Below, in pieces: positions 5,719 to 56,665 of a DNA stretch of 64,000 nucleotides. The DNA lies in assembly GCA_005656395.1 (NCBI GenBank), contig SRSI01000021.1:62001-126000 (forward strand), given 5' to 3'. Source of the DNA: Strongyloides papillosus (taxonomy: Eukaryota; Nematoda; Chromadorea; Rhabditida; Strongyloididae). The notes under the pieces were generated by a model, which was not told the origin of the DNA, made no database searches, and saw nothing but the letters and a program-made list of their open reading frames with translations. Each line of letters starts with the position of its first letter. The first letter of the stretch is position 1. Made by a program: the position numbers and the translations under genes.

Positions 5719-8494
5719 ATGGATACGATAAAGGCAAAAATTAGAGGTTTCGAGCCAGGGAGTGACGTCGGGCCTTCGGATAGTCGAATAATTAACAATC
5801 ATGCAAAAATGTTAAAAATGATGACACTTAATGTCAGATCACTACTCCACAAAATATATGAATTGAATGAACTGCTGAACTCAGAGGAAATTGATGTTGC
5901 GTTTATTACTGAAACCAGATGGAAAACAGATGAATGTTTCCAAGAATAAGGTTTTGTATATATCATGGGTAAAGCGGACAATAGAAATGGAGGTAGTGGT
6001 ATAGTTATCAAAAAAGAACTACTAAAATACATTCAAAAAATAGTTACACAATCGTCGAGAATAACCAGTATTGTTATGAAAGTAGAAAATGAGACATGTG
6101 TTCTTACATCATGTTATTTCCATACTTTTGCTGCTTCTGAAGATGAAATTGACATTTTGTACGACAAATTACGAGGTATCATTACTGATAGTAAAGATAG
6201 AAATATGAAATGCATTGTTGGAGGAGACTTTAATGCAAAGGTACTATTCAATAACAAGAATGGAAGACGGTTAAACGGGAATGTATTAGAAAATGAAAGA
6301 GGAGAAAGATTGACTCAATTTTTATGAAGAAATGGAATTATGTTGCTGCAATATGCTCTTTAACAGGAAATCCAACAGAAGAACAACTTGGATATCACCC
6401 AATCAAAAAATTAAAGGAGAAATAGACTATTTCTTATCAGATGAAGTATTAGCTAAAAGAATAAAAGATGTTAGGGCGTTGCAAAAACATATCTTTAACA
6501 GCGACCATAACCCTTTAATATTAAAATTAGAATTCAAAGTCTTATCACATAGGACAAAATTCAAGAACAACAAGGTTAATGTTAGACCGAACTTTAATAA
6601 AATTGACCCCATGAAGTTAAAAGATATTAAGAAAAAATTAAATTGGGACCTTGGTGAAAATGCTGAACAAAACTGTGATACAATCAGAAGTAATCTTACA
6701 AAAATTTACAATAAATATAAAATAAAAGAAATAAAGTCATCACGTAGAATCACTGATAATCCGAAAATCAAAAATCTACTTATCAAGAGGAAAAATCTTA
6801 AAAGTAAAGGTTTGAATTATACTATTCTTAGCAAACTATTAAGATTCGAAATTAATAAGTTGTGCTTAAAAAGAACAAATTCAGTTATTGATAAAGCTAT
6901 CAAGGAAGGTAGATCAATGAAATATGTTTTTAAAGAAACAGCTAGGAAAAAATTCAACAACATAAGCAAAGATAGTGTGAAGAAAACCTTTGGTGAAATC
7001 TTTGGTAAAGAAAGAGAAGAAAGTATCGAGTGGAGGAATTATGTCAAAAAAGATTCTAAATGACATCCCATAACACCTGAAGGAGTTAGTTTTAGAATTA
7101 AAAAAAGTAAAAGAAAAGCTTGTGGACCTGATGGCATTTTTCTCGAACACCTCATATTAGGTGACAGAAAAGCAGCAGAAGCACTAGCTACTTTATTCAA
7201 TAAGCATGGACATTTGATTCCTGACCAAATAAATGAATGCAGTATAGTTCTTATCAAAAAACCTAGCAGTATTTCGAATGATATTTCTAGTTTTAGGCCA
7301 ATATCAATCTTACAAACTATTTTCAAAATTTATACTGGAACTTTACTTGAACGTATCCAAGATAAGATTGAAAATTGTGTCAGTTCTAGCCAGGCGGGGT
7401 TTTTTAGAAAAAGAAATACTTTAAATCAGATATTACAATTCTGCACAATAATTCAAACGTGTAGAGAGTATAAGAAAGATTTATATGCTATTTTTATAGA
7501 TTTTAAAAAAGCATTCGATTCAGTTAACCATAGCTGGCTTCTCTACAGTTTGGCAATAAATGATTTTGATGAAGAATTGGTAAAAAGAATTGAAGCATTA
7601 TACAGATCTCCAAAAGCTACCTTTTCCACAGGTATCAACAATTCATATACTACAATCGAAGTGAAGTCAGATATTAGACAGAGTGATACAGTAAGCCCAA
7701 AATTGTTTATTCTATTATTGGAAATAATTCTTAAGAATGCCCAACATGATTTAGATGATTGTTTTAAAAACGAAGAAAGTAACCTAGTTAAGGTTATGAT
7801 TGATGGTACTCCTACAGTTAGCTTCAAATTAGAGTTTGCTGAAGACATAGTAATTTACACCTATGATCAAAAGCTAACAGAAAAAATAGCTCATGTTATT
7901 AAATATCATGCCAGGAAAACAGGTCTAGAGTTGAGTAAGGATAAAACAAAAATGATGGCTACGCAATATAAAAAGAAGTTAGATAATCCAATATATGAAG
8001 TAGTATCAAATTATAAATACCTAGGAAGAGTGGTATCTATGGACCTGAATGGAGATAATAACGATTTCAATGAACGTGCAAAGGCCACATGGCGGGCAAG
8101 ATTTAAAAACAAAGAACTATTAAATAGAGCTGATTACAAAAATAAATTAAAAATTTATAATTGCATCATAAGACCAGCAACTCTATACAGTATAGAATCT
8201 ATGAGACCGACTATTATGCTTATCAATAAATTTGTATAACTGGAGAAGAAGGTTCTATATTCTATTTTCAAAAAAGAGATCCATCTTGCTATGTGTATTA
8301 AAGATATAATACTAGATAGAATGGAAAAGGCAAGAAAACCTTTTGATGTATATGTTGAGAAAGATTGGAAAAGACCAGTAGGCAGACCTCCAAAGAGACT
8401 TCTATCTCTTGTTCCTGATAATTCTACTATACGAAAACAACCTGATAGAAAAGCCAAATTATCATTAAATGTTAATATTTATAAACGTTTGTAA
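5719..8494 (+). pseudogene. Decayed RTE-like LINE (endonuclease + reverse transcriptase)
   Basis: This is a degenerate non-LTR retrotransposon polyprotein. The N-terminal part is an apurinic-type endonuclease: TLNVRSL then ITETRW near 5825-5925, and GGDFNAKV near 6218-6240. The RT follows: RPISILQ, FIDFKKAFDSVN (about 7495-7530), IRQSDTVSPKLF and FAEDIVIY (about 7830-7860). GRPPKR near the C-terminus is RTE-like. The frame is broken by in-frame stops at 5947, 6325, 7061 and 8237 and by a frameshift near 6340-6360. The active-site FADD is FAED, so it is dead. A run of AATAAAATAAA follows at 8520-8550, like an RTE 3' tail. Assignment to RTE rests on motifs only. Confidence 0.85.
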
Positions 8495-11139: not shown

Positions 11140-11350
11140 TGAAATATGAATATTATAAAATATTAATATTAATGAAAAGAAATTATAAATTATGAATTTT
11201 AAAGAAGAAATTTTAAATATTATAGTAATTTTGAATATAAAAATGTCTATAAATTGTATGATTATTTTCTAAAAAACAAGAGTTTTAATAAATTGTGTTA
11301 ATTTATTGACTTGTGTGTTATTTTATTATCTATATTGGTTTTATTTTACA
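11140..11350 (+). repeat. 5' LTR (211 bp)
   Basis: TG...CA termini. By eye it is identical to 15663-15873. It is AT-rich and contains no obvious protein. It is preceded by the duplication AAAGA. Confidence 0.93.
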
Positions 11351-11361
11351 TGGCGATCCTG
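11351..11361 (+). other. Primer-binding site
   Basis: TGGCGATCCTG follows the 5' LTR with no spacer and begins with TGG, the complement of tRNA CCA. Against the 3' end of the tRNA-Arg(TCG) at 53624-53696 with CCA added, 10 of 11 positions pair, so an Arg-type tRNA primer is likely. The true donor gene may be elsewhere. Confidence 0.7.
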
Positions 11362-11369
11362 TTTTTATA

Positions 11370-14300
11370 ATGAATCTACCGGACCTTTCAAGTATACCTG
11401 TTCAAAGTATGGAAAACTACAGAGGTAGTCTACCATATGCGCGTTATTTTAAAAATGAATTAATTTTACGTTCCATCTCCTTGGATTCTATGGAGTGTGG
11501 GAAATTGTTTTGTATCTATCAATCTGAGAAGGAGAAGCAACGATTCTATGAGCATTTTGAAGACATCAATCTCTCATTTTATGACATAGAAAGCTATATC
11601 CAATCTCGTACTACTTTTTATGAACCTTCTGCTGCTGAAAAGATCATGATGTTCAATAAAGCTGTGAAACCATCAACGGAGTGTTACTCTTCATTTGCTG
11701 CTACTTTGAAGACAATGCTGACTGATGTTGTTCCACGTGCTGCTGTTGATTCATGTTTATTGCTGAAAATGTTAAATGATGCTCCCCAACCTGTCAAAGA
11801 AGCTTTGGTTAAGCATTCTTCTATTACACTGGAGGTTTTTCTGCGTGAAGCTAAGGACCATGAGGACAAACAACGTGTTCGATTGTTGTTCCCCCGTCCC
11901 TCCCCGGAAAATGTTCAGGAAAGAAGAAAAGAACCAAAGATCTTGTCGTCACCTCAAGTTATGGTACCAAAAAAATGTTTCAACTGTCAACAACCTGGTC
12001 ACCTTCGTCCCAATTGTCCGTTGAAAACTGATCTGAATCCAACGACCGAAGCTAAACTTCTATCACTGGCCATTGAGAAATCTCAATTTTACCCAAATGA
12101 ATGGAACAAGGCTCCACTGTTGTTTGAATCTTTCAATTTTGGACCACATCAACTTGTAGCGTGCATTGACTCTGGTGCTGAAATTAATGTTCTGCCTGCT
12201 TACATGATTGATGCTTATGTTAATGTTGGAATTGATGTTCGAAAAGTCTCTCAAATGGTTGTTTCTGGTGTTGGTAAAAAGGATGTAGCTGCAGTTGCAA
12301 ATCTCCTTATCTACTCCATTGCCACTCAGAAAGCTGTTGCTGTTGATGTATATTTTATCAACGAAATGACTCCCTTAATCACTGTTCAAACAGCTCATGC
12401 TCTGGGTTTGAGCATTGATGAATTGGCGTCTCATGCTATTGATGAAAGAGTGAAATTGAAGCAAGTTTTGGATGATTTGTATGTTTTTGATAAAGAATTA
12501 GCGAATGAATTTCTTAGAAACAAATCTACATTTGACGAAAGCAATGTCGAACCTAAGTTAGAGGTGAAAATTGAATTGGCATCAAATGTACCTTCCAAAA
12601 TATTCAAACCATATCCGATTAGTGATTCAGGTAGAAAGATTCTTTCAAAGTTTTTGTCTGAGGAAATTAAATTAGGACACATCAAACCAATTGCTGATCC
12701 TATTGTTGCTTTACCTATTACAATTGAACCTTTGAAGAATCGTGTTTGTACGGATTCACGTTGGATAAATCGTTTTATTCATGGTTGTGATTTGCCTGTG
12801 CCTTCAAAAGAAGAATTGTTAATCAAGATTTCACAATCAGAGTATTTCAGCACTTTTGATTTTCGTAGAGCTTTTAAATTGATGAGAATTAACAAAGAAT
12901 TTGAGAAATTTAATGTTATTTCAACTTGCTATGGTTATTATTCGAGTGATAGGTTACAATTCGGAATCAAGTCAGCTTCTGGACTTTTCCATTTGATGAT
13001 TAGTGATTTATTACGTCCTTTAAGTAAGAATGCATTGTGGTATGTAGATGATGTGTTGTTTTTTGGTGATTTGGATTCCCAGAGATCAGCAATTATTGAA
13101 TTTGTGAAGATATGTAGTATTAATGGTTTAAAGTTTAATATACATAAAATGCAGTTGTTTAAGAAATCTGTAACATTTTTGGGTTCTCTAATTTCAAGTA
13201 ATGGAATTTCTGTTCATCCATCTCGTATTGCCGAATTAAAGAATTTGGAGAAGCCAAAAAGTGTTAATGAGATGCAACGTTTTTTAGGAAAATATGTGTT
13301 TATTTCAAAGAATATTGAGAATTATTGTGAAATTGTTAATCCTTTGTATCCAAGAAAGGATGATGAAAATGATGGTTATGTATGGTCGAGTGCTCGTGAA
13401 AAGGCATTTCTAAGGTTAAAAGATGCTACTCAAAATTACTTGACTCTTACACCACCATTACCAGGTGAAGATCTGTTTCTTTATCATGTACCAACACCTG
13501 AATCTCTTCATGTAGAATTGAGAAATGCAAAAGATGATATGATTGATATTTACATGAGAACTTATACCTCTGCTGAGAACAATTATTCAGAATTGGAGAA
13601 AGAGTTGCTCTCAATTTCGTCTTACATCAATTTATCACTACCGTTTATTTTTGAAAGAAATATTATTTGGCTTACGACTTCTAAAATGATATCAAAAATG
13701 TTACAAACACCATTGGATTTGAGTTCTAATGCTTCAAGTAGAATTCAATCTCTTCTAGCACCTTTGGTCATTTTTAACATGGAGTGTCGTTTTTCAAATA
13801 AATTAAAGTCAGAGCGAAATAATGTTGAGGTCAAAATTTTTGCTGCGAAAATTGATATTTCTAGTTTTAGTGATATTTCTTTGACTAAATATTTAACTAA
13901 TGGTGAAATTCGTGCTGATCAATCTTCTTCTGTAGTGTGTTTAAATTTATTTAAATATTTTGATTCTTTAGATAAAAAAGGTGAATATTTGCTGTCTATT
14001 CCAAAGTACTTGAGGGAGGAGATCGAACTGTTGAATGTTATTGAAGGTATTATATGTATTGATGGTAAGCCAATTATTTCATCAAATTTGGCGTTAATAG
14101 TAATTAGAGAAATTCATAGACAGTCTCACTCAGGAACTGTTATAATGGTTAATGAAGCTTCTTTATGGTATTTTTTTAAAGGATGGAGTTCTATTTGTGC
14201 ACGTGTATTAGATGAATGTTCTTTATGTTTACGGATGAAAGCTCCCACCCATAAAAAAACAACTTGTTGGTCTCCAGCGTTATTTCCAAGAGAGCGTGGA

Positions 14301-15665
14301 CACTATGATATTTGTTATATTGATAATAATCCAATTATTATGTTATGTGATAGTTTTTCAAATTATGTAATGGTCAAAATGTTAAAAAGTAAATCTCAAG
14401 AAAATCTGGTATCGTTTTTTCGTCCACTTCTTGAACAATTTCCGTGGTCAATTTTAATTTCTGATAATGAACCATCTTTGTGTGGTCCTGATTTGGCTAT
14501 GTTATTTCAAGAATTTCATGTACATCACGTTACTTCGATACCATATTTTCCAGCTAGTAACGGTTTAGTAGAAAAGTATATTCACATTTTTAAAACAAAG
14601 GTTAAGAAATTTATGTTATCAAGCATGTCTTTATCTTCGTCAATTAGTGCTGCGGTACATGCTATTAATCATTTTGCAAATACAAAGAGAAAAATTTCTG
14701 CTGCTCAATTATTTTATACTTCTTATGACAAAAAAATTGATTACTTACCACCAAAGGAGGTTGTTGTTCCAAATAAGATGATTTATTTTTTACCAAAAGG
14801 AAAACTTTCGTCAACTTATCTTGCTGGAACATTGGTTGCTACACTTGGTTCTCGTATAAATGTTGTTTTGCATGAAGATATGAAATATTATGTTTCTGTT
14901 GATCATTGTCACTATGGGTATCATAAGTATAATTTGGATGAGGTCTTGAAGGATGTTCCAAATTTATTTACAACTTCATTAGAACATGATGATAAAACTT
15001 TAAAGCTTCTGGATCATGATCATGTGGATGATGATGCATTTTTGTACAATCAACGTGAGTTATTTAATAAAGAGTGTTTGGAAAATTCAATAAAGTCAAT
15101 GAAAGAACTTCTAGAGTTAATTAGAAAATCTAAACATAAGAATTTTTTATTTATTGATGGATCAATTAAAAATGGTCATGGTGTTGGTATTTATGGTTTA
15201 CTTAATGGAATTCCTGTTTTTATTAGCAAGCGTGGATATTTAAGAGGGCGAGTTACCTCACCGCGTATGGAGGTTGAAGCTCTTATGGAATGCATGAAGC
15301 TTTTACAATCAAAGGGTGTTGGTGAAGCAGACATTTTTTCAGATAACAGTTATGTGGTAAATTCTGTCAATCAAGGATGGGCAAAGCTCTGGTTATCTGA
15401 GGAGGGGAAGAGGAACTCGAGAAACAAAGTCCCAGCTCATATCAATCAATGGAAATCAATTATGGAGATTCACCACCCAAACTACAGGATTTATCATGTT
15501 CAAGGTCACCAGTTGGAACCTCACAATGTAGCAGATCTATTGGCTAAAGGTGAATCTATTAATGAACTGTTAGAATCTATCAAAAAATACAATGATCCTG
15601 ATGAATTGTTTCCTACAAGTGAAAAAGTTCCACCACTTCAACTTAACCTGCCAGCCCCGGAGTGA
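11370..15665 (+). CDS. Gag-Pol polyprotein with a C-terminal second RNase H
   Basis: The protein is 1431 aa from the first ATG after the LTR; an upstream GTG lies in the LTR and was not used. Order: gag-like region; CCHC knuckle CFNCQQPGHLRPNC (from residue 203); aspartic protease DSGAEIN (D267); Ty3-type RT with YVDD (558-561); an RT-linked RNase H that keeps the NYSELEKELL glutamate but lacks the first and third acidic residues; integrase with a zinc-like CSLC, D1032 (SDNEP) and E1068 (D-35-E). Last comes a full RNase H: D1263 (FIDGS), E1303, D1325 (SDNSY), H in VQGHQ and D1389 (VADLLA). It is expected to package, copy and integrate the element's RNA. The stop codon TGA is the first three bases of the 3' LTR. 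Confidence 0.92.
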   Translation: MNLPDLSSIPVQSMENYRGSLPYARYFKNELILRSISLDSMECGKLFCIYQSEKEKQRFYEHFEDINLSFYDIESYIQSRTTFYEPSAAEKIMMFNKAVKPSTECYSSFAATLKTMLTDVVPRAAVDSCLLLKMLNDAPQPVKEALVKHSSITLEVFLREAKDHEDKQRVRLLFPRPSPENVQERRKEPKILSSPQVMVPKKCFNCQQPGHLRPNCPLKTDLNPTTEAKLLSLAIEKSQFYPNEWNKAPLLFESFNFGPHQLVACIDSGAEINVLPAYMIDAYVNVGIDVRKVSQMVVSGVGKKDVAAVANLLIYSIATQKAVAVDVYFINEMTPLITVQTAHALGLSIDELASHAIDERVKLKQVLDDLYVFDKELANEFLRNKSTFDESNVEPKLEVKIELASNVPSKIFKPYPISDSGRKILSKFLSEEIKLGHIKPIADPIVALPITIEPLKNRVCTDSRWINRFIHGCDLPVPSKEELLIKISQSEYFSTFDFRRAFKLMRINKEFEKFNVISTCYGYYSSDRLQFGIKSASGLFHLMISDLLRPLSKNALWYVDDVLFFGDLDSQRSAIIEFVKICSINGLKFNIHKMQLFKKSVTFLGSLISSNGISVHPSRIAELKNLEKPKSVNEMQRFLGKYVFISKNIENYCEIVNPLYPRKDDENDGYVWSSAREKAFLRLKDATQNYLTLTPPLPGEDLFLYHVPTPESLHVELRNAKDDMIDIYMRTYTSAENNYSELEKELLSISSYINLSLPFIFERNIIWLTTSKMISKMLQTPLDLSSNASSRIQSLLAPLVIFNMECRFSNKLKSERNNVEVKIFAAKIDISSFSDISLTKYLTNGEIRADQSSSVVCLNLFKYFDSLDKKGEYLLSIPKYLREEIELLNVIEGIICIDGKPIISSNLALIVIREIHRQSHSGTVIMVNEASLWYFFKGWSSICARVLDECSLCLRMKAPTHKKTTCWSPALFPRERGHYDICYIDNNPIIMLCDSFSNYVMVKMLKSKSQENLVSFFRPLLEQFPWSILISDNEPSLCGPDLAMLFQEFHVHHVTSIPYFPASNGLVEKYIHIFKTKVKKFMLSSMSLSSSISAAVHAINHFANTKRKISAAQLFYTSYDKKIDYLPPKEVVVPNKMIYFLPKGKLSSTYLAGTLVATLGSRINVVLHEDMKYYVSVDHCHYGYHKYNLDEVLKDVPNLFTTSLEHDDKTLKLLDHDHVDDDAFLYNQRELFNKECLENSIKSMKELLELIRKSKHKNFLFIDGSIKNGHGVGIYGLLNGIPVFISKRGYLRGRVTSPRMEVEALMECMKLLQSKGVGEADIFSDNSYVVNSVNQGWAKLWLSEEGKRNSRNKVPAHINQWKSIMEIHHPNYRIYHVQGHQLEPHNVADLLAKGESINELLESIKKYNDPDELFPTSEKVPPLQLNLPAPE

Positions 15666-31797: not shown

Positions 31798-31818
31798 GCG
31801 TTTATGGTGTAATGGTCA
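31798..31818 (+). pseudogene. tRNA-Gly(TCC), 5' part, split by LINE
   Basis: The acceptor strand GCGTTTA followed by TGGTGTAATGGTCA is identical to the start of the intact tRNA-Gly(TCC) at 49491. After the D-arm the sequence switches to the LINE 3' end. The remaining 3' part of the tRNA is at 35537-35601. Confidence 0.9.
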
Positions 31819-34800
31819 TTTTATTATTAGTAAAGTTAAACATTAAAGGAAATTATACAAAAATAATATTTAACTATTAGTTAATTTACGCTAAATGGTG
31901 TTCTATAATTCGTACACTTCCTAAAACAACTTCCTTTGAAGCATGTGCCCACATTCTGTTAGAAGCAAGTTTACCAATTTTGAATTCCTTGTTCAACAAA
32001 TCTTTTGTTCCTCTAAAGCAGTCACCGAAAGAAGAAAATACCACGGGGATGAACATACATTCATATCCAGTCTCTTCCTCTAAAGCACTCGCATAATTTG
32101 TAGATTTAGGTTGTTTATGAATGTCCTGATAATTACTATTATTAACTTCAACTGTACCGTTCCAGGTATATTTAACCTTTTTTATGCTCTCCATTTGCTT
32201 CATATTTGGAAAGAAACTGACTGCAAAATCAAAAACATAAGATTTCCTGCGTTGTTTGTCAATGATAACCATATCCGGATTACTAGCAACAACTTGAGAT
32301 AGCAAGGGGTAAGGTGTATCGAAAAATATTTCAGCATTATTGTTCTTATATATTTTTCTACCCTTAACATAACTGAATCCATATTTTTTGAGAACCCTTC
32401 TTAAAATAGCAATTCCCATGTTGTTGTGGCGAGATACGAAAAGTGATTTTTTGAATTTCTCGCACCGGTTGAGGATATGGTATACGGTTTCAACAGCTTG
32501 CCCACAATGTCTGCATTTTCTATCAACAAACTCATTGCTACCAAATTTCCAATGACACTTTGTTATTGTTTGTCCCTCAGATGCAGCAAATAATTTCCTC
32601 ACATGCTTTATGCTAATGCCACCTCTTATCCAATCACTATCTACTTCATCTTTACATTTTAATCTCCATTTACCATATTCCAGATTTCTACTGAATTTTT
32701 CACTTTTTTGTTCAATAAACACTTTTTTAAAATGCTTCTTAAACATCTTTTTTGCATCATCGACATTTGAGAACTTGTAACAATCTTTGCCCAGTCGAAT
32801 CTCAAGAGGTACATAGTTCATTCCTTCTTTATAGCTACTGAACATTGGAGTGACTTTGACCTCATCATTCTTCAGATTGTAATATTGAGCTAGAATTTGT
32901 TGAAGATCAGTTACACAAGATCTTTGTCCCTTCAATGTACTAACATGATAATGCGTGCATGTTTCTGGTATGGTATCAACATTCATTAGATTGTATATAA
33001 TACTAACAGTTAATGTCAGTTCACATCTATAACGAACATTGAGTAAATTCAACCCTCCCAAAGACGTAGGAAGATAAAGTCTAGCAGTACTTGTATTTTT
33101 CTGGATTAATCCTAAATCCCTTAACCTATTCACTATTGCTTGATCAACCTTGTCTTCAATAAATCTCATAGTTTCTCTCCAACGATTATTCATTGTTACA
33201 GCAACATATTCAGCAATAGCTGGAACTATTTGATTATGACATGTTACCAGTTGACCAATGTGAAGGTCTGACTGCCATATTTGCTTTACTTTACAAATAA
33301 TCTTTTCCTTCATACGTTCGAGATTTTCAGGTGCTGTATCTAATACTTTTTGATAGATCCCCAACCATTTATACGGATCACTCTCATGATCAAAGATTTG
33401 TATATCATCCATGGTACTAGGATCAAGTTCATCATTGTTGGCACATTCCGGTTTGATTTTACCTTGTACAGATGCTACTTTGCCACATTTGCTTTTATTG
33501 ACTTTCACACCACAGATACTACCAATCTCGCATACTTTGTTGAACAATAATTCTAGAGATTTACCACTACTTGAATACAACTTCAGGTCGTCAGCAAAGA
33601 ACAAGTGGTTAAATACTCTATTATTATTCTTAACATTACCGATTGGTTTGCTACGGCCCACATTATATGTTATTTTATCCAGTTTGTTCAACTCGAAGGT
33701 GATCCAACTCATGCATAGACAAAATAAACTTGGTGACATACTGTCTCCTTGCAATACCCCTCTCTTAATACTTATTTCACTACCTGTTCTTCCCTCCATA
33801 AAGATTTTACTCTTCCATGAACCAATGATACCACAAATTAACTTTTTAACCTTTTCAGGTATTGACAACGATGATATCAAGTATTTGATGAATGGTTGAT
33901 GGAGGCTGTCGAAGGCTTTGGAAAAATCCACGTATGCCGAAACCAAAGTATTTTTTGCTTTATTTGCAGTGAATTTTTTATCCAAAACCAAACTGGAATC
34001 CCGGTAATGAGCCACACAAGTTCCCCATACATTTCTAGCATTAGCCAACTGTTCATTTGGATTCATAACTGTTTCAGCAGTAGCAGCAATTATAAATTCG
34101 TTCAAATAAGCAGTTACGGCTTTGTAACTTGTGTTGCAGCAGGATATTGGTCTATAGTTGGTAACTGAATTTGAATCTCCCGATTTGTGTAACAAGTAAA
34201 TTATAGCCTTTGTGTCTGAAGATGGAATACTGGATGACTCGATGCACTTTTCGATATAACTCTGAAGTTTGTCGAAAGCACATGGTAGTTTCTTGTATAA
34301 GATTCCAAATATCTTGTCCGGTCCAGGAGACTTCCAATTACTTAATCTTGCAATGATATCTGATATGGAAAAAGCAGGTACCAATTCTCTTCCATTAACT
34401 TGAGAACAATACATTTCAATAAAATCTTTCGATTTAGCTTTTGCGTTTTCCAGATCAAATTCAACTTCTTTATAAAGATTTTTATAAAAATTAGTTGCTT
34501 CATTCATATTCAAATCATTTTTTCTATTATTCTTATTAAGTAACATTTGGATTGATTTTAGTGATGGTTTGGCATCAAAAGCTGTACGTATTCTAGACAA
34601 CTTTTCCTTGTTAAGCCAGTAAGTTAGTGAAGATGTTTGCTTGTTGATTAGTATACTCAAGAATGATGTCCAGTCATTTTTACAAAAATTTTTCCTTTTA
34701 GGGAATTTCTTACGAAGTTTTGTTTGTAATGAAGGATCATCAAAGTTATTGGTTACTTTTTCAAGAAGTGATTTATTTTCACTTATTTTCTTTTTTAGTT

Positions 34801-35536
34801 TGTCAGAGTATTTTCCTTTTCTAAATTTTTTTCCCATGGTCATTTCATTGAGCAACACACCCGCAACAAATATAAACTTTTTTGCTTCAGTTAAATCCAA
34901 ATTGACGATAAAACTTTCAAGGATACTGTTTACCAGATTCCATTGCCATTGATAAGGTTTGCAATAATATATCCTTTTTGGTAACTTTTTCTGTTTTAAC
35001 AGGATATTGAATCTTTCTAACCAATACTCTCTAATAACTTTATCATCATGTGGTAACTGATTGTCTTTAGGTACTCTTTTGTCATCACTATTTTCATCAC
35101 AATTGGTATCTTGCGTATCAATATATGATGATACATTTGATGAGTTGCTGGATTCATTTTGTGACTGGATCACTTCTTTCCTGTTTAGAGCTTCCTCTAC
35201 CCATAAAAATTTAGATGGATCCACTTCCGAAACTTTACCAGCAATATGTCTTATTCTTCTCCTCGTCTCGATAGAATTGTCGACAGTTGTCATCAAATTT
35301 AGCTTGTTAAATTTATTTAGTACCATCACCCAATCATATTTCCCATGCTTTTTTGAATTTTCAGCTAAAAATTTTAGTATTTCTGCATGTTCCTCCATTA
35401 GCGTAACTTTTGCATTTATTTTGTTAACCATTTTTGGCCAGTTTTTAATTGCAAAGGTCTCTTAGTATGAAATAACAGTAGAAAATACAGACGAAATAAA
35501 AAAGCGTCAGTCTTCCAGGTGATCAAAAAAGAGACT
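31819..35536 (-). mobile_element. Full-length RLE-type LINE inserted in tRNA-Gly
   Basis: This 3718-bp element lies antisense to the tRNA. Its limits are set by a 14-bp target duplication, TGGTGTAATGGTCA at 31805-31818 and the same with one G to A change at 35537-35550. It has a roughly 105-bp 5' UTR, one long ORF, a short 3' UTR and no poly(A); the sense 3' end reads ...CTAATAATAAAA. RLE-type LINEs (R2, R4, NeSL, CRE) are often site-specific, and the location in the tRNA fits that habit. Confidence 0.88.
31886..35431 (-). CDS. LINE protein: reverse transcriptase + restriction-like endonuclease
   Basis: A 1181-aa open frame without breaks. The N-terminal 75 residues could be a Myb-like DNA-binding helix bundle (KYDWVMVLNKFN); this is weak. 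RT motifs follow in order: KSPGPDKI, INYRPIS-type TNYRPISCC, YVDFSKAFDSL, RGVLQGDSMSPSLF, HLFFADDLKLYS (FADD at 612-615) and DPYKWLGIYQ, a pattern of the R4/NeSL/Dong group. Near residue 972 is a CRHC...H...C knuckle. At about 1050-1080 NPDMVIID...VFDFAVSF matches the PD-(D/E)xK endonuclease of R2-type elements. It nicks the target and primes reverse transcription there. The start is the first ATG after a stop. It appears intact and may be active. Confidence 0.88.
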   Translation of the reverse strand: MVNKINAKVTLMEEHAEILKFLAENSKKHGKYDWVMVLNKFNKLNLMTTVDNSIETRRRIRHIAGKVSEVDPSKFLWVEEALNRKEVIQSQNESSNSSNVSSYIDTQDTNCDENSDDKRVPKDNQLPHDDKVIREYWLERFNILLKQKKLPKRIYYCKPYQWQWNLVNSILESFIVNLDLTEAKKFIFVAGVLLNEMTMGKKFRKGKYSDKLKKKISENKSLLEKVTNNFDDPSLQTKLRKKFPKRKNFCKNDWTSFLSILINKQTSSLTYWLNKEKLSRIRTAFDAKPSLKSIQMLLNKNNRKNDLNMNEATNFYKNLYKEVEFDLENAKAKSKDFIEMYCSQVNGRELVPAFSISDIIARLSNWKSPGPDKIFGILYKKLPCAFDKLQSYIEKCIESSSIPSSDTKAIIYLLHKSGDSNSVTNYRPISCCNTSYKAVTAYLNEFIIAATAETVMNPNEQLANARNVWGTCVAHYRDSSLVLDKKFTANKAKNTLVSAYVDFSKAFDSLHQPFIKYLISSLSIPEKVKKLICGIIGSWKSKIFMEGRTGSEISIKRGVLQGDSMSPSLFCLCMSWITFELNKLDKITYNVGRSKPIGNVKNNNRVFNHLFFADDLKLYSSSGKSLELLFNKVCEIGSICGVKVNKSKCGKVASVQGKIKPECANNDELDPSTMDDIQIFDHESDPYKWLGIYQKVLDTAPENLERMKEKIICKVKQIWQSDLHIGQLVTCHNQIVPAIAEYVAVTMNNRWRETMRFIEDKVDQAIVNRLRDLGLIQKNTSTARLYLPTSLGGLNLLNVRYRCELTLTVSIIYNLMNVDTIPETCTHYHVSTLKGQRSCVTDLQQILAQYYNLKNDEVKVTPMFSSYKEGMNYVPLEIRLGKDCYKFSNVDDAKKMFKKHFKKVFIEQKSEKFSRNLEYGKWRLKCKDEVDSDWIRGGISIKHVRKLFAASEGQTITKCHWKFGSNEFVDRKCRHCGQAVETVYHILNRCEKFKKSLFVSRHNNMGIAILRRVLKKYGFSYVKGRKIYKNNNAEIFFDTPYPLLSQVVASNPDMVIIDKQRRKSYVFDFAVSFFPNMKQMESIKKVKYTWNGTVEVNNSNYQDIHKQPKSTNYASALEEETGYECMFIPVVFSSFGDCFRGTKDLLNKEFKIGKLASNRMWAHASKEVVLGSVRIIEHHLA

Positions 35537-35601
35537 TGGTGTAATAGTCAGCATGGCCGCCTTCCAAGCGGCCGATTCGGGTTCGATTCCCGATAAACGC
35601 A
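35537..35601 (+). pseudogene. tRNA-Gly(TCC), 3' part
   Basis: From the duplicated D-arm through anticodon loop CTTCCAA, T-arm GGGTTCGATTCCC and acceptor TAAACGC it is identical to the intact gene at 49491-49562 except for one base in the duplication. It lacks its 5' acceptor strand, so it cannot form a normal tRNA. A T5 terminator remains just downstream. Confidence 0.88.
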
Positions 35602-48529: not shown

Positions 48530-50040
48530 ATAATATCAAACGACAAACAAAAAGTGCTGTAAACGACATAAAATATTATTTCGCTAAATAAATTTTCATA
48601 TGCTTTACAAAAATATATATGTTTGACACTTTGAAGTGATGTAACTTTTTTATTTTTAATATTTTCTATCATATTCTGCTCATCTTAGAGTTGCTTTATT
48701 TAATATACTATGAAATATATTATCAGATATTATTTTAATATAATCTCTTTTTAAAAGTTAAAATATTTAAAAGTTTTTTACTTTGAACACGAATGCATAA
48801 TGCATTATAAATTTATATGAATCTGTTTTTATGAGTGATCATGAATGATATCATAAAAAAATTTGGTCGTCAGATGAGTATAACTTTATAAAAAAAATAT
48901 ATTTTTACTATAATTAAAATTATTAAAAAAAAAAGATATTGTTATGTTTTAATAAATGCTCTTTATAACAGTATTTACGATTTTTATAAAATTGAATATA
49001 ATCTTGTATTTTGAAATGTATTGTAGAAAGCAACTTAATTTATAAAATAAAGATGATGTTATAGAAAAAAGGCAATTATTTTTATACTTTTCAAATTGTT
49101 GATTTAATTTCTAAATGCTAAATAATTGCGATAAAATTAGTGGTAAGTCAAAAAAATTAGATTTTTTAATAAATGTAACAAAATCACTATATTTTACAGT
49201 GATTTTTGCTTTTTTTATATGTATCATGTTATTATATAACTATTAGTGAGGTATTTATATTTTTTCAAACTAAGTGGAAGATCAGTCAAAGTAGCTTTCT
49301 TTTATTCATTATGAAAAACATTCATTTATTTTTGTTAATTTAAAAGTAAATTAGCTTACAAACAAATGATAAAAAAATGTTTTATTCCTCTTTAAATTAC
49401 AACATTATTAATATATTAATTGTATTATTGGATTGAAAAAAATAAGACAATGTGTAAGAACGGAAAAATTTGGTTTTCCCATCATAACACGCGTTTATGG
49501 TGTAATGGTCAGCATGGCCGCCTTCCAAGCGGCCGATTCGGGTTCGATTCCCGATAAACGCATCTACAAGTTTTTTTAGCGATAAAATTATGTATTTTGT
49601 TCATTTAATCGTATCTATTTCTTTGTTTTTACTATTACCAAATTGTTTTATGTAACTTTTTAATATATAAATATATTATTTTATAAAGTATTAATTTTTT
49701 TTACTTTTATGACATTTTTGTGTGAAAATAACTTTAAAATAATTTTTAGAGAATATTCAGTTTACTTCTTTGCCATCTCTGTCAAAATAGTTTTTGTATT
49801 GTTTTTACAACTGCAAAATAACTAGTTATCTCATCAAATTGCTATAATATAAAAATAAATTATTACTAATAAATTGTTTATTACCGAATAAATAAATATG
49901 CGAAAAGTGAATAATCTAAATATTTCTCGCAAGTTATTTTATTTGAGACAATTTTTGATTTTAAAAAAATGAACACAATATGCAAAGTTTTTAGTAGTAG
50001 GAAAGTCCTATTAATGGCAATAAACTTTTTCAAATTTGTT
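48530..50040 (+). repeat. Duplicated locus (uninterrupted copy) carrying tRNA-Gly
   Basis: It is paralogous to 30830-31818 joined to 35537-36070. It contains an R repeat copy (48530-49230), the gtgaggtatttatattttt stretch at 49246 and the tRNA-Gly gene. It represents the site as it was before the LINE insertion. Confidence 0.75.
49491..49562 (+). tRNA. tRNA-Gly(TCC)
   Basis: The acceptor GCGTTTA/TAAACGC is perfect. The D-arm is TGGTGTAATGGTCAGCA, the anticodon stem GCCGC/GCGGC with loop CTTCCAA, and the T-arm CGGGTTCGATTCCCG. The discriminator is A, with a T-run at 49570. Intact; it is the empty-site paralogue of the tRNA split at 31818/35537. Confidence 0.96.
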
Positions 50041-51083: not shown

Positions 51084-51917
51084 CACTCAAAACCTTTTGC
51101 TTTTCTTTTTCCGGTGTTTACCAAAAAGACGGGAAATTTTCTGACAATTAGAAAATCCCGACTATTATATAGTATTTGGTTAAATGTTCCCTAATATTAT
51201 ACTTCAATCGTATTTATTTATCATTTTATGTTAAGATTTAACAAAATTGGCTTCTTAATATGTTATTAATAATTCTTTTGTACGATATTTTTAATGTATA
51301 TTTTTAGGTTTAATGTTTTGTTGTGAAAAGGCTAGCTGTTGGGAATGAGTTTCATGTAAGTATATTTCTATAAATAAATAATACTTCTAAATTTATAATC
51401 ATTATAGGTTACCACACTAAGGAATGTTTTGGAGCTCGTCCAGAAAAACTAAGAGATAAGTTTTTAGAGTTTCTTCACTAATATAAATAATTTTAGGTAT
51501 GGGTTAATTTCGTATAAGAATATGTGTGAAGACGGTTTAAAAAGAATCTTGTAGGCTACAGATTTATAATTACAAGCTATGCTGGATAAATTAAGCCGAA
51601 CGTTTTGAAGTTAATTGGAATTTCATCGGATAAGTTTATACTAAACTACTTTTTATAATTATTATTTATCTTTATTTATTGTTGTATAGTAATCTAATTA
51701 TTGTTAGTAAATCTTTGATGTTTATATGTTTTTTATCAATGTTTTCTAAAATTTTCAATCAGTATACAGGAAGTATATAGTATATTTTATACCATTTATG
51801 GAGAAATTTAAAAATTTCTCTTTAGGAAAACACTTTGGAATAACGTAACAAATTTCTGACAGTTGGAAATGACAGCCAATTTTGACGTCAAATTTTCTGA
51901 CAATTAGAATTTGAGTG
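51084..51917. mobile_element. CACTA-like element inserted in tRNA-Gly(GCC)
   Basis: The termini are CACTCAAA and TTTGAGTG, flanked by AT on both sides (a 2-bp duplication, 51082-51083 and 51918-51919). A 3-bp TGA reading is also possible. Subterminal repeats aaattttctgacaattagaa occur near both ends (51134 and 51890), plus a variant at 51849. Starting with CACT, having a short duplication and subterminal repeats fit the CACTA superfamily. There is no transposase. A GT-AG intron with short flanking frames lies inside (51320-51450). Confidence 0.65.
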
Positions 51918-51919
51918 AT

Positions 51920-51982
51920 GGTTAAGTGGTATAATTCTCGCCTGCCACGCGGGAGTTCCGGGTTCGATTCCCGGTCAACGCA
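51920..51982 (+). pseudogene. tRNA-Gly(GCC), body without its 5' acceptor
   Basis: GGTTAAGTGGTATAA D-arm, anticodon stem CTCGC/GCGGG with loop CTGCCAC (GCC), T-arm CCGGGTTCGATTCCCGG, acceptor TCAACGC and discriminator A are all intact. The seven bases now preceding it (TGAGTGA) pair with the acceptor at only three positions because they belong to a transposon end. Hence it is inactivated or at least hard to process. Confidence 0.85.
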
Positions 51983-55378: not shown

Positions 55379-56665
55379 TTAGGTTGTTACATATGAAATG
55401 ACTGTTTTTTACTCTAATTTTTAAATACGCATAACTTTACTAAAAATTAATATTTTTATTCAAAATAAGAACTATTAGAATCTACACATTGTTGCCAACG
55501 AGATACAAGCTTATTTATTCCATTTGCATAGAAATCCGGGGTTCTAGATTCAATGAAAGCTTCAAAGGCAGTTTTTATGTCCTCATCGTTTCTGAAGATT
55601 TTCTCTGTTAAAAAGTTGTCGAGATGTTTGAAAAAGTGGAAATCTGTTGGAGCAAGGTCAGGTGAATATGCGGGATGAGGCAGTGTTTCATACCCTAATT
55701 CGTTCAATTTCTGGAGGGTCTTCTTTGAAACATGAGGTTTTGCGTTATCATGGAGGAGAATTGGCCCTTTTCTATTGACTAAAACGAGCATTTTTTGAGA
55801 CAATTTTTGATTCATTTCTTCAAGCAGTTGACAATAGGACTCCGAATTAATAGTTTCTCCAGGTTTCATGAACTTATAATGAATGACTCCTACAGCAGAC
55901 CACCAAACAGTTACCATAACCTTCTTTGGGGTCAATTTGGGTTTTGGAAAGTGTTTTGGAGCTTCATTTTTGTCCAACCATTGTCCAGTTCTTTTACGAT
56001 TGTCGTACAGAATCCACTTTTCGTCACAAGTTATAAGACGACTTAGAAATGGATCATTTTTGTTCCTCAAAATGAGAGAAGAACAAACCTCATAACGACA
56101 CATTTTTTGATAGTCGTTTAATTCATGAGGTACCCATTTGTCAAGCTTTTTCGTCTTTTCTATCTCTTTTAAGTGGCGGGAAATTGTTGCTGTAGATACA
56201 TTTAAGTCTTCTGCAAGACTCCTGACAGTTGTACGTGGATTGGCTTCAACAGCTTCCCGTAATTCATCGTTATCAATTACGGTCTCAGGTCTCCCACGCT
56301 CTTCATTCTCGAGGTCTTCACTGCCTTCTTTGAATTTTCTAAACCATCTTTGTACAGTGGAAACAGAGACAAGATCTTCTCCGAAAGATTCATTAATTTG
56401 TTGAGTTGTTTTTGCAGCATTAGTACCGCGTTTGAACTCATAAAGCATAATAGCACGAATATCACGTTTTGAAAGCATAGTTTGTTTTTGAAATAATTTG
56501 AAGATAAATAGAGCTCATGACAACAATATATATATCATCGTGTAGAGGAGATTTAGAAGAATCTAACAGTTTGTTTAATTATACCAAAACATAACAAATC
56601 GTTTAAGAAAAGACGCGCCAAACAACGCGCATTAAAAAACAGTCACTTCATATGTAACAACCTAA
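55379..56665 (-). mobile_element. Intact mariner element (1287 bp)
   Basis: TA dinucleotides flank 33-bp inverted repeats starting TTAGGTTGTTACATATGAA that differ at one base. The length equals that of typical mariners. A complete transposase frame is present on the minus strand. It resembles the cecropia-type group (TIR TTAGGTTG..., WVPHEL linker). It looks young and potentially active. Confidence 0.95.
55456..56478 (-). CDS. Mariner transposase
   Basis: A 340-aa intact frame, normal for mariner. The N-terminal paired-like helix-turn-helix DNA-binding region covers about residues 1-110 (including GRPETVID, an AT-hook-like GRP linker, and TISRHL). The linker motif WVPHEL is at 115-120. The catalytic DDE/D domain has D152 in TCDEKW, D244 in LLHDNAKPH and D279 in [13 protein letters not shown], giving the D34D spacing of mariners. 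It cuts at the TIRs and reinserts into TA sites. No stop or frameshift is seen. Confidence 0.96.

Follow-up and report, generated by a model that had tools for sequence, protein, structure and literature searches.

Did the long interspersed nuclear element (LINE) that splits a tRNA-Gly(TCC) gene of the parasitic nematode Strongyloides papillosus land there by accident, or does it recognize that gene? The question arises from a 64,000-nucleotide (nt) stretch of assembly GCA_005656395.1 (contig SRSI01000021.1, positions 62,001 to 126,000; hereafter the window), in which a first-pass annotation, made from the letters alone, had seen two halves of the tRNA gene on either side of a LINE of about 3.7 kb with a restriction-like endonuclease (RLE), and had proposed site specificity from this one insertion. 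Our analysis located the element to the base and supports that proposal, since all five copies found in the genome occupy the same tRNA-Gly position in the same orientation. On the strength of these sequence comparisons we assign a probability of roughly 0.9 to the conclusion that this is a recently active, site-specific, RLE-bearing LINE inserting directly 3' of nt 21 of tRNA-Gly(TCC), give or take about 1 nt, a little beyond the A box.

The anatomy of the window copy is listed in Table 1. The 5' tRNA piece is identical to the intact gene of the window in all 21 positions and the 3' piece differs from it by one mismatch in 65, both as annotated at first. A duplication of 14 bp had also been described; this holds for the window copy, in which it contains one mismatch and covers the A box (which we take to be TGGTGTAATGG, nt 8-18), and over the five copies the length ranges from 11 to 14 bp.

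A whole-stretch DNA search of the 58.2-Mb assembly (79 contigs) returned 41 rows, and all 39 first-look candidates were scored. Six rows are LINE sequence, belonging to five loci, and the other 35 correspond to whole or partial tRNA-Gly genes, including one that forms the right flank of copy C22; about 29 tRNA-Gly copies counted in this search are apparently uninterrupted. Two of the LINE loci, C52 (the window) and C32, are full length, C14 is present in two pieces with an internal deletion, and C22 and C6 are 5'-truncated, C6 being the most degraded (about 80.5% identity); the open reading frame (ORF) is intact in two copies. In every case the LINE 3' end directly follows tRNA-Gly nt 21 and the element runs antisense to the tRNA. 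To the right of the LINE the tRNA resumes at nt 8 (C52), 11 (C32), 10 (C14), 9 (C22) or 11 (C6), and the left piece begins at nt 1 in C52, C32 and C6 (in the last with two mismatches). The copies thus combine a fixed 3' end, variable 5' truncation and a target-site duplication, all at one position of one tRNA gene.

Probe searches of the assembly allowing up to three mismatches gave the same picture. A 24-base junction probe, made of the duplication and the LINE 3' end, matched at five places, all of them this LINE, and the 29-base LINE 3' end alone matched at the same five and nowhere else, the reversed controls giving zero in both cases; chance insertion is thereby rejected. Nucleotides 1-21 of tRNA-Gly occur 39 times at up to two mismatches (33 exact). 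Given some 42 candidate sites in the 58.2 Mb, the chance of one insertion at the exact position is about 7e-7, and that of four further matches after the first about 3e-25 if the insertions are independent. The flanks of the five copies found were inspected for a full-length copy outside tRNA-Gly; none was found, the second full-length copy lying in tRNA-Gly as well. A possible sixth copy at L054/L057 (C47:216192), an orphan tRNA-Gly nt 1-21 with two mismatches ending exactly at A21, has neither a LINE frame nor a 3' tRNA half within 4.5 kb and was not counted.

The protein bears out the annotation of the element as an RLE LINE, by its reverse transcriptase (RT) domain and by the C-terminal succession of a knuckle (CRHCGQAVETVYHILNRC), RH and then PDMVIIDKQRRKSYVFDF. 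We aligned the window protein with 11 other RLE LINE proteins of this genome (alignment A1). The RT aspartate pair, H995, C1000, R1011, H1012, P1062 and D1063 are invariant in all 12, as is the RH plus PD...D/E pattern; two knuckle cysteines at CX2-3C are found in 10, being absent at the usual spacing in the spliced-leader families L026 and L032. The window protein has no match to the apurinic-type endonuclease PF03372 up to E 0.1, nor a Pfam match to an N-terminal zinc finger, Myb or other DNA-binding domain; a Myb match in the sister protein L017 (E 4.8e-4) falls under the curated cut-off. Pfam scans of the window protein and seven sister proteins, which did not extend to the spliced-leader-family proteins, found no protease domain. 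The A1 profile matches the R2 structures 9nl3 and 9dou with E about 1e-50 over positions 364-1007, into the knuckle region, and R2 proteins take ranks 1-4 among PDB fold matches of an AlphaFold model of low confidence (mean predicted local distance difference score, pLDDT, 54, and below 50 over residues 1-218; predicted template modelling score 0.43). By these comparisons R2 proteins are among the nearest solved relatives, and the fold matches weakly suggest kinship with R2; insertion into 28S ribosomal DNA (rDNA), by which R2 is recognized, was not found, the probes placing the LINE in tRNA-Gly. The ORF is 98-100% identical to an S. papillosus database protein over 43% of its length. A chaperonin gene likewise points to the genus, matching at 100% identity a Strongyloides cluster of two members that is represented by a sequence from S. 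venezuelensis. The closest relatives outside the genus are weak (27% identity over 42%), and among 154 proteins (P0001-P0154) only P0013, from Panagrolaimus, shows the strict RLE pattern.

Table 1. The interrupted tRNA-Gly(TCC) gene, its LINE and the intact comparison gene, in window coordinates.
Feature	Coordinates	Strand	Evidence
tRNA-Gly(TCC) 5' piece, nt 1-21	31798..31818	+	100% identical to 49491-49511 (sequence comparison)
Target-site duplication, left copy (14 bp; tRNA nt 8-21, presumed A box inside)	31805..31818	+	13/14 bases as in right copy
Full-length LINE, 3,718 bp, antisense to tRNA	31819..35536	-	ungapped 99.76% match to C32 copy over 3,718 bp; junctions
LINE 3' untranslated end, 67 bp; LINE-sense terminus ...AATAATAAAA	31819..31885	-	3' end common to 5/5 copies (C6: 2 mismatches)
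Single ORF, 1,191 codons; ATG at 35431 the likely start	31886..35461	-	S. papillosus database protein P0064 begins at same Met
RT domain, residues 428-702; catalytic DD, residues 624-625	33356..34180	-	PF00078, E 4.6e-21; DD invariant in 12-protein alignment A1
CCHC knuckle, RH and restriction-like endonuclease PD...D, residues 983-1079	32225..32515	-	alignment A1 and motif reading
LINE 5' leader upstream of ORF; LINE-sense start AGTCTCTTTTTTG	35462..35536	-	T-rich start resembles other families
Target-site duplication, right copy	35537..35550	+	junction reading
tRNA-Gly(TCC) 3' piece, nt 8-72; A and B box stretches kept	35537..35601	+	98.5% to 49491-49562 over 65 nt
Intact tRNA-Gly(TCC), comparison copy	49491..49562	+	ARAGORN

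Related LINEs of the same genome extend this picture to other genes. Sister loci were collected by two protein searches, one with the window LINE and the other starting from a Glu family, which returned largely the same set; in both only the best candidates were scored. Junctions were read in loci with 1.5-kb flanks, to the exclusion of C14:136709-138241, C24:12954 and some eight matches to the RT only. In tRNA-Glu, L013 and L014 (a single locus for each) lie after nt 21, and L017, L018 and L020 after nt 14; these last three loci are perhaps not all separate insertions, as their upstream flanks are 88-94% alike. In tRNA-Asp the position is after nt 14 (L019, L021 and L025, 15 being possible for L025), with L019 and L025 stacked at the same site, and in tRNA-Pro, assigned by eye, after nt 28 (L024). 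Together with the five Gly copies this makes 14 loci in tRNA genes, with duplications that, read by eye, vary among the families between 10 and about 17 bp; six sister representatives in tRNA-Glu, -Asp and -Pro share the anatomy of the Gly LINE. Other RLE LINEs occupy a spliced-leader-like gene (L026-L028, L031, L036 and a tandem array on C24, L029-L035), the 18S gene before GATGGCCGTTCTTAG (L016/L022, one junction seen) or adjoin 28S sequence (L015/L023). The C24 array has a period of 5,544-5,545 bp. Read by eye, L027 and L032 carry the LINE in the same direction as the leader, and L036 carries it in the opposite one. A gene weakly resembling SL1 (spliced leader 1) RNA (25.5 bits and E 2.8, below the gathering score), whose leader we take to be Strongyloides-like, adjoins 5S in the C14 locus.

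A tree restricted to this genome's families and one outgroup grouped the Gly LINE with Glu-L013 and Glu-L014 (99/98), united the spliced-leader families (99/98) and placed Glu-L017 beside the two families in tRNA-Asp (98/95); its weak points are a median end branch of 1.32, a 28S row only 41% filled and an unreliable placement of the Pro family, for which long-branch joining with the outgroup was warned. Since the Gly/Glu clade inserts after nt 21 and the Glu/Asp clade after nt 14 (15 being possible in one family), the position within the tRNA tracks ancestry while the identity of the tRNA changes, tRNA-Glu being used by both clades. It is tempting to speculate, at roughly even odds, that a radiation of RLE LINEs has partitioned the tRNA genes of this one nematode genome, in which the cut position is inherited per clade (nt 21; nt 14 or 15; nt 28 for Pro) and the isoacceptor is exchanged, tRNA-Glu having been colonised by both the nt-21 and the nt-14 clades; recognition would then be anchored on shared A-box/D-arm sequence and complemented by a replaceable part reading tRNA identity.

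How the Gly LINE would reach its site can be modelled on R2, for which target-primed reverse transcription is established. In the tRNA gene, the RLE would nick the RNA-like strand just 3' of A21, and the free 3' end at the nick would prime reverse transcription of the LINE RNA, beginning at its AAUAAAA terminus; a cut of the other strand 11-14 nt upstream would generate the target-site duplication, and copying halted early would leave a 5' truncation. The fixed 3' junction, the short duplications, the variable 5' ends and the antisense placement fit such priming from the RNA-like strand, the nick being placed to within about 1 nt because A21 can be assigned to either side. As the LINE is antisense to the tRNA it could not ride on the tRNA transcript and would need a promoter of its own. 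For the host, the interrupted gene copy is expected to be dead, since the 3' piece, with both internal promoter boxes kept, lacks the 5' strand of the acceptor stem; the loss of one tRNA-Gly gene would be cheap in view of the many apparently uninterrupted copies.

Several points weigh against the reading of a site-specific RLE LINE. Only five copies were found, one of them (C6) degraded, and the searches could have missed copies that are very short or highly diverged. In C14 and C22 the left tRNA piece consists of just nt 10-21 and nt 7-21, respectively, abutted by the end of another transposon. DNA transposons also insert in tRNA genes here, so that some of the attraction could be general to tRNA loci. 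On the protein side, kinship with R2 is not exclusive: the A1 profile scores L1 ORF2 nearly as strongly (9e-50, ending at 831) and matches Bombyx R2 to position 759 only, and human L1 ORF2 follows at rank 5, close behind the R2 proteins, in the fold comparison.

The best-surviving alternative, which we nevertheless regard as unlikely, is that the RNA polymerase III (Pol III) machinery or open chromatin, instead of the DNA sequence, attracts the LINE. Ty3 and the TRE elements of Dictyostelium are precedents for attraction to tRNA genes, and unrelated transposons are also inside tRNA genes of this genome; such a general attraction would not, however, yield a single nucleotide position, at which, within one isoacceptor, all five copies stand. 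Furthermore, two copies lie in tRNA genes that are also interrupted by the other transposon end upstream of the site, and the C14 duplication may hold one transposon-derived base, a mere hint (one base, with a one-in-four probability of chance agreement) of entry into an already broken gene. The single-nucleotide constancy of the site leads us to prefer sequence reading over tethering by Pol III. Slightly less probable still is the recognition of a feature common to the tRNA genes of many isoacceptors, with the restriction to Gly a matter of small numbers. The use of the nt-21 register in tRNA-Glu by related families speaks for it; nonetheless all five copies are in Gly(TCC) despite plentiful other tRNA genes (the window has 11 ARAGORN calls, one without an assigned amino acid), and the multi-locus sister families (three Glu loci, two Asp loci) keep to one isoacceptor each.

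Sequence-specific insertion must finally be weighed against the copying of a locus already filled. The bodies of C32 and C52 are 99.76% identical (9 mismatches in 3,718) and their upstream flanks 73% over 778 bp; the corresponding values for C22 and C52 are 97.7% and 73% over 1,460 bp of downstream flank, and for C14 and C52 98.0% and 91% over 620 bp of downstream flank. Near-identical bodies in dissimilar flanks lead us to reject duplication of one filled locus for C32 and C22 relative to C52, and at least C52, C32 and C22 are, as judged from these identities, separate insertions, with the near-identity of the two intact copies indicating recent activity; the shared 91% flank makes the case of C14 and C52 less clear, a further point against our reading. 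We regard as very improbable a single chance insertion that segmental duplication, or gene conversion between dispersed tRNA repeats, later carried to further tRNA-Gly loci. Recombination between such loci is plausible, given flank similarities of 73-91% over hundreds of bases and the flank common to C14 and C52. Against this rival stand the body-to-flank contrast of C32 and C52, the differing truncation points of C22 and C6 and the varying starts of the right tRNA piece, as separate retrotransposition predicts, and the same anatomy in sister families at tRNA-Glu, -Asp and -Pro.

The 5' ends of the LINEs were also compared, over the first 110 nt for 12 loci, and seven trimmed 5' ends were aligned and folded. 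Fold z-scores were mixed (-0.06, 0.13, -2.50, -2.50, 0.11, -2.25 and -0.44) and no Rfam ribozyme family matched in 25 loci at E up to 5 (the window being represented by its twin L002), so that a shared 5'-end structure or ribozyme was dropped. The 5' leaders of the window LINE, L013, L014, L017, L019, L022 and L024, families that differ in target, all begin T-rich and contain a T-rich word resembling GACGCTTTTTTATTTC.

Other transposons lie in and near tRNA genes. A DNA transposon of about 935 bp with inverted ends starting CACTCAAAGTCA was recorded at L042, L046-L051, L056, L058-L061 and L063-L065, and in the window at 51084-51922. Flanks were read at 12 sites (L062 and L066, with one end only, were dropped), and in 10 of these the 2-bp duplications agree. 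Tools support the presence of a tRNA at six of the 12 sites: ARAGORN, run on joined flanks, called Gly twice and Ser once, and Rfam recognized a tRNA at L049, L051 and L056 (by eye Lys, Asn and Tyr). By eye, L047 lies in Pro, C66 is apparently the L056 locus again, and L048, C25, C39 and L063 are merely tRNA-like. Within window positions 51084-51982, sequence 94% similar to the transposon end that adjoins the Gly LINE of C14 abuts a tRNA-Gly(GCC) at 51915, so that this gene also looks interrupted. Two further families were read by eye inside tRNA-Gly. The first, at L043 and L045 (with a similar start in L052 and L053), has the inverted ends GGTAACACGTCAACT and duplications of 9-10 bp, a length that is its only MULE-like trait; the other, at L044, is a second CACT-ended family with the duplication TT. 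Elsewhere the window holds, identified by eye, a 1,451-codon pol-like frame (11310-15665), an RT-like stretch across two adjoining frames (6314-8239) and a 352-codon mariner-like transposase frame (55456-56514).

Site-specific RLE LINEs are a model for target-primed reverse transcription, and tRNA genes emerge here as a niche divided among several retrotransposon families and DNA transposons. With sister elements that occupy identical or adjacent positions across several tRNA genes, comparison would reveal the address-reading part of the protein, and further multicopy addresses would also become available; if the radiation outlined above is true, they form a natural series for how an RLE LINE changes its address. 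Trials of RNA-templated gene insertion use such LINEs at the 28S rDNA address of R2 (PMC11331408).

Among known systems, R2 (9nl3, 9dou, 9nl2, 8gh6) shares with the Gly LINE the order of RT followed by zinc knuckle and RLE; its target, however, is 28S rDNA and not tRNA-Gly, to which the Gly LINE is antisense. R2 proteins carry N-terminal zinc fingers and Myb, to which Pfam scans matched nothing in the Gly LINE protein, the sub-threshold Myb match being in its sister L017. R4/Dong elements, R4 being known from a nematode, resemble it as RLE LINEs of the same general type. NeSL-1 is likewise a nematode RLE LINE in a multicopy small-RNA gene, that of the spliced leader, and sister families of the Gly LINE sit in a spliced-leader-like gene; the target of the Gly LINE is nevertheless another, and its protein lacks a Pfam match to the protease domain given as a trait of the NeSL clade in the portions consulted of PMC4640811. 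The same portions (Kojima and Jurka 2015) name NeSL-1_TV, LIN15_SM and LIN25_SM, the LIN families from planaria, as RLE LINEs specific for tRNA-Pro, tRNA-Arg and tRNA-Glu; each is like the Gly LINE specific for a tRNA gene, and tRNA-Gly is not among the targets named there. Titles and abstract openings, together with passages of PMC10676819, PMC10676810 and PMC9203780, yielded no report of a tRNA-Gly RLE LINE or of tRNA-targeted LINEs in Strongyloides, Repbase reports and most subscription papers lying outside this search. The distinct specificity suggested by the first-pass annotation thus stands as to the address and not as to the kind of target: tRNA-Gly is, within the literature so covered, a new address for a known class of tRNA-gene-specific RLE LINEs. 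Dada elements, as described in the passages seen of PMC3706591 and PMC8869645, also target tRNA genes, tRNA-Gly among them, and some of them enter at the A box, but these are DNA transposons with short (6 bp) duplications, whereas the Gly LINE is a retrotransposon.

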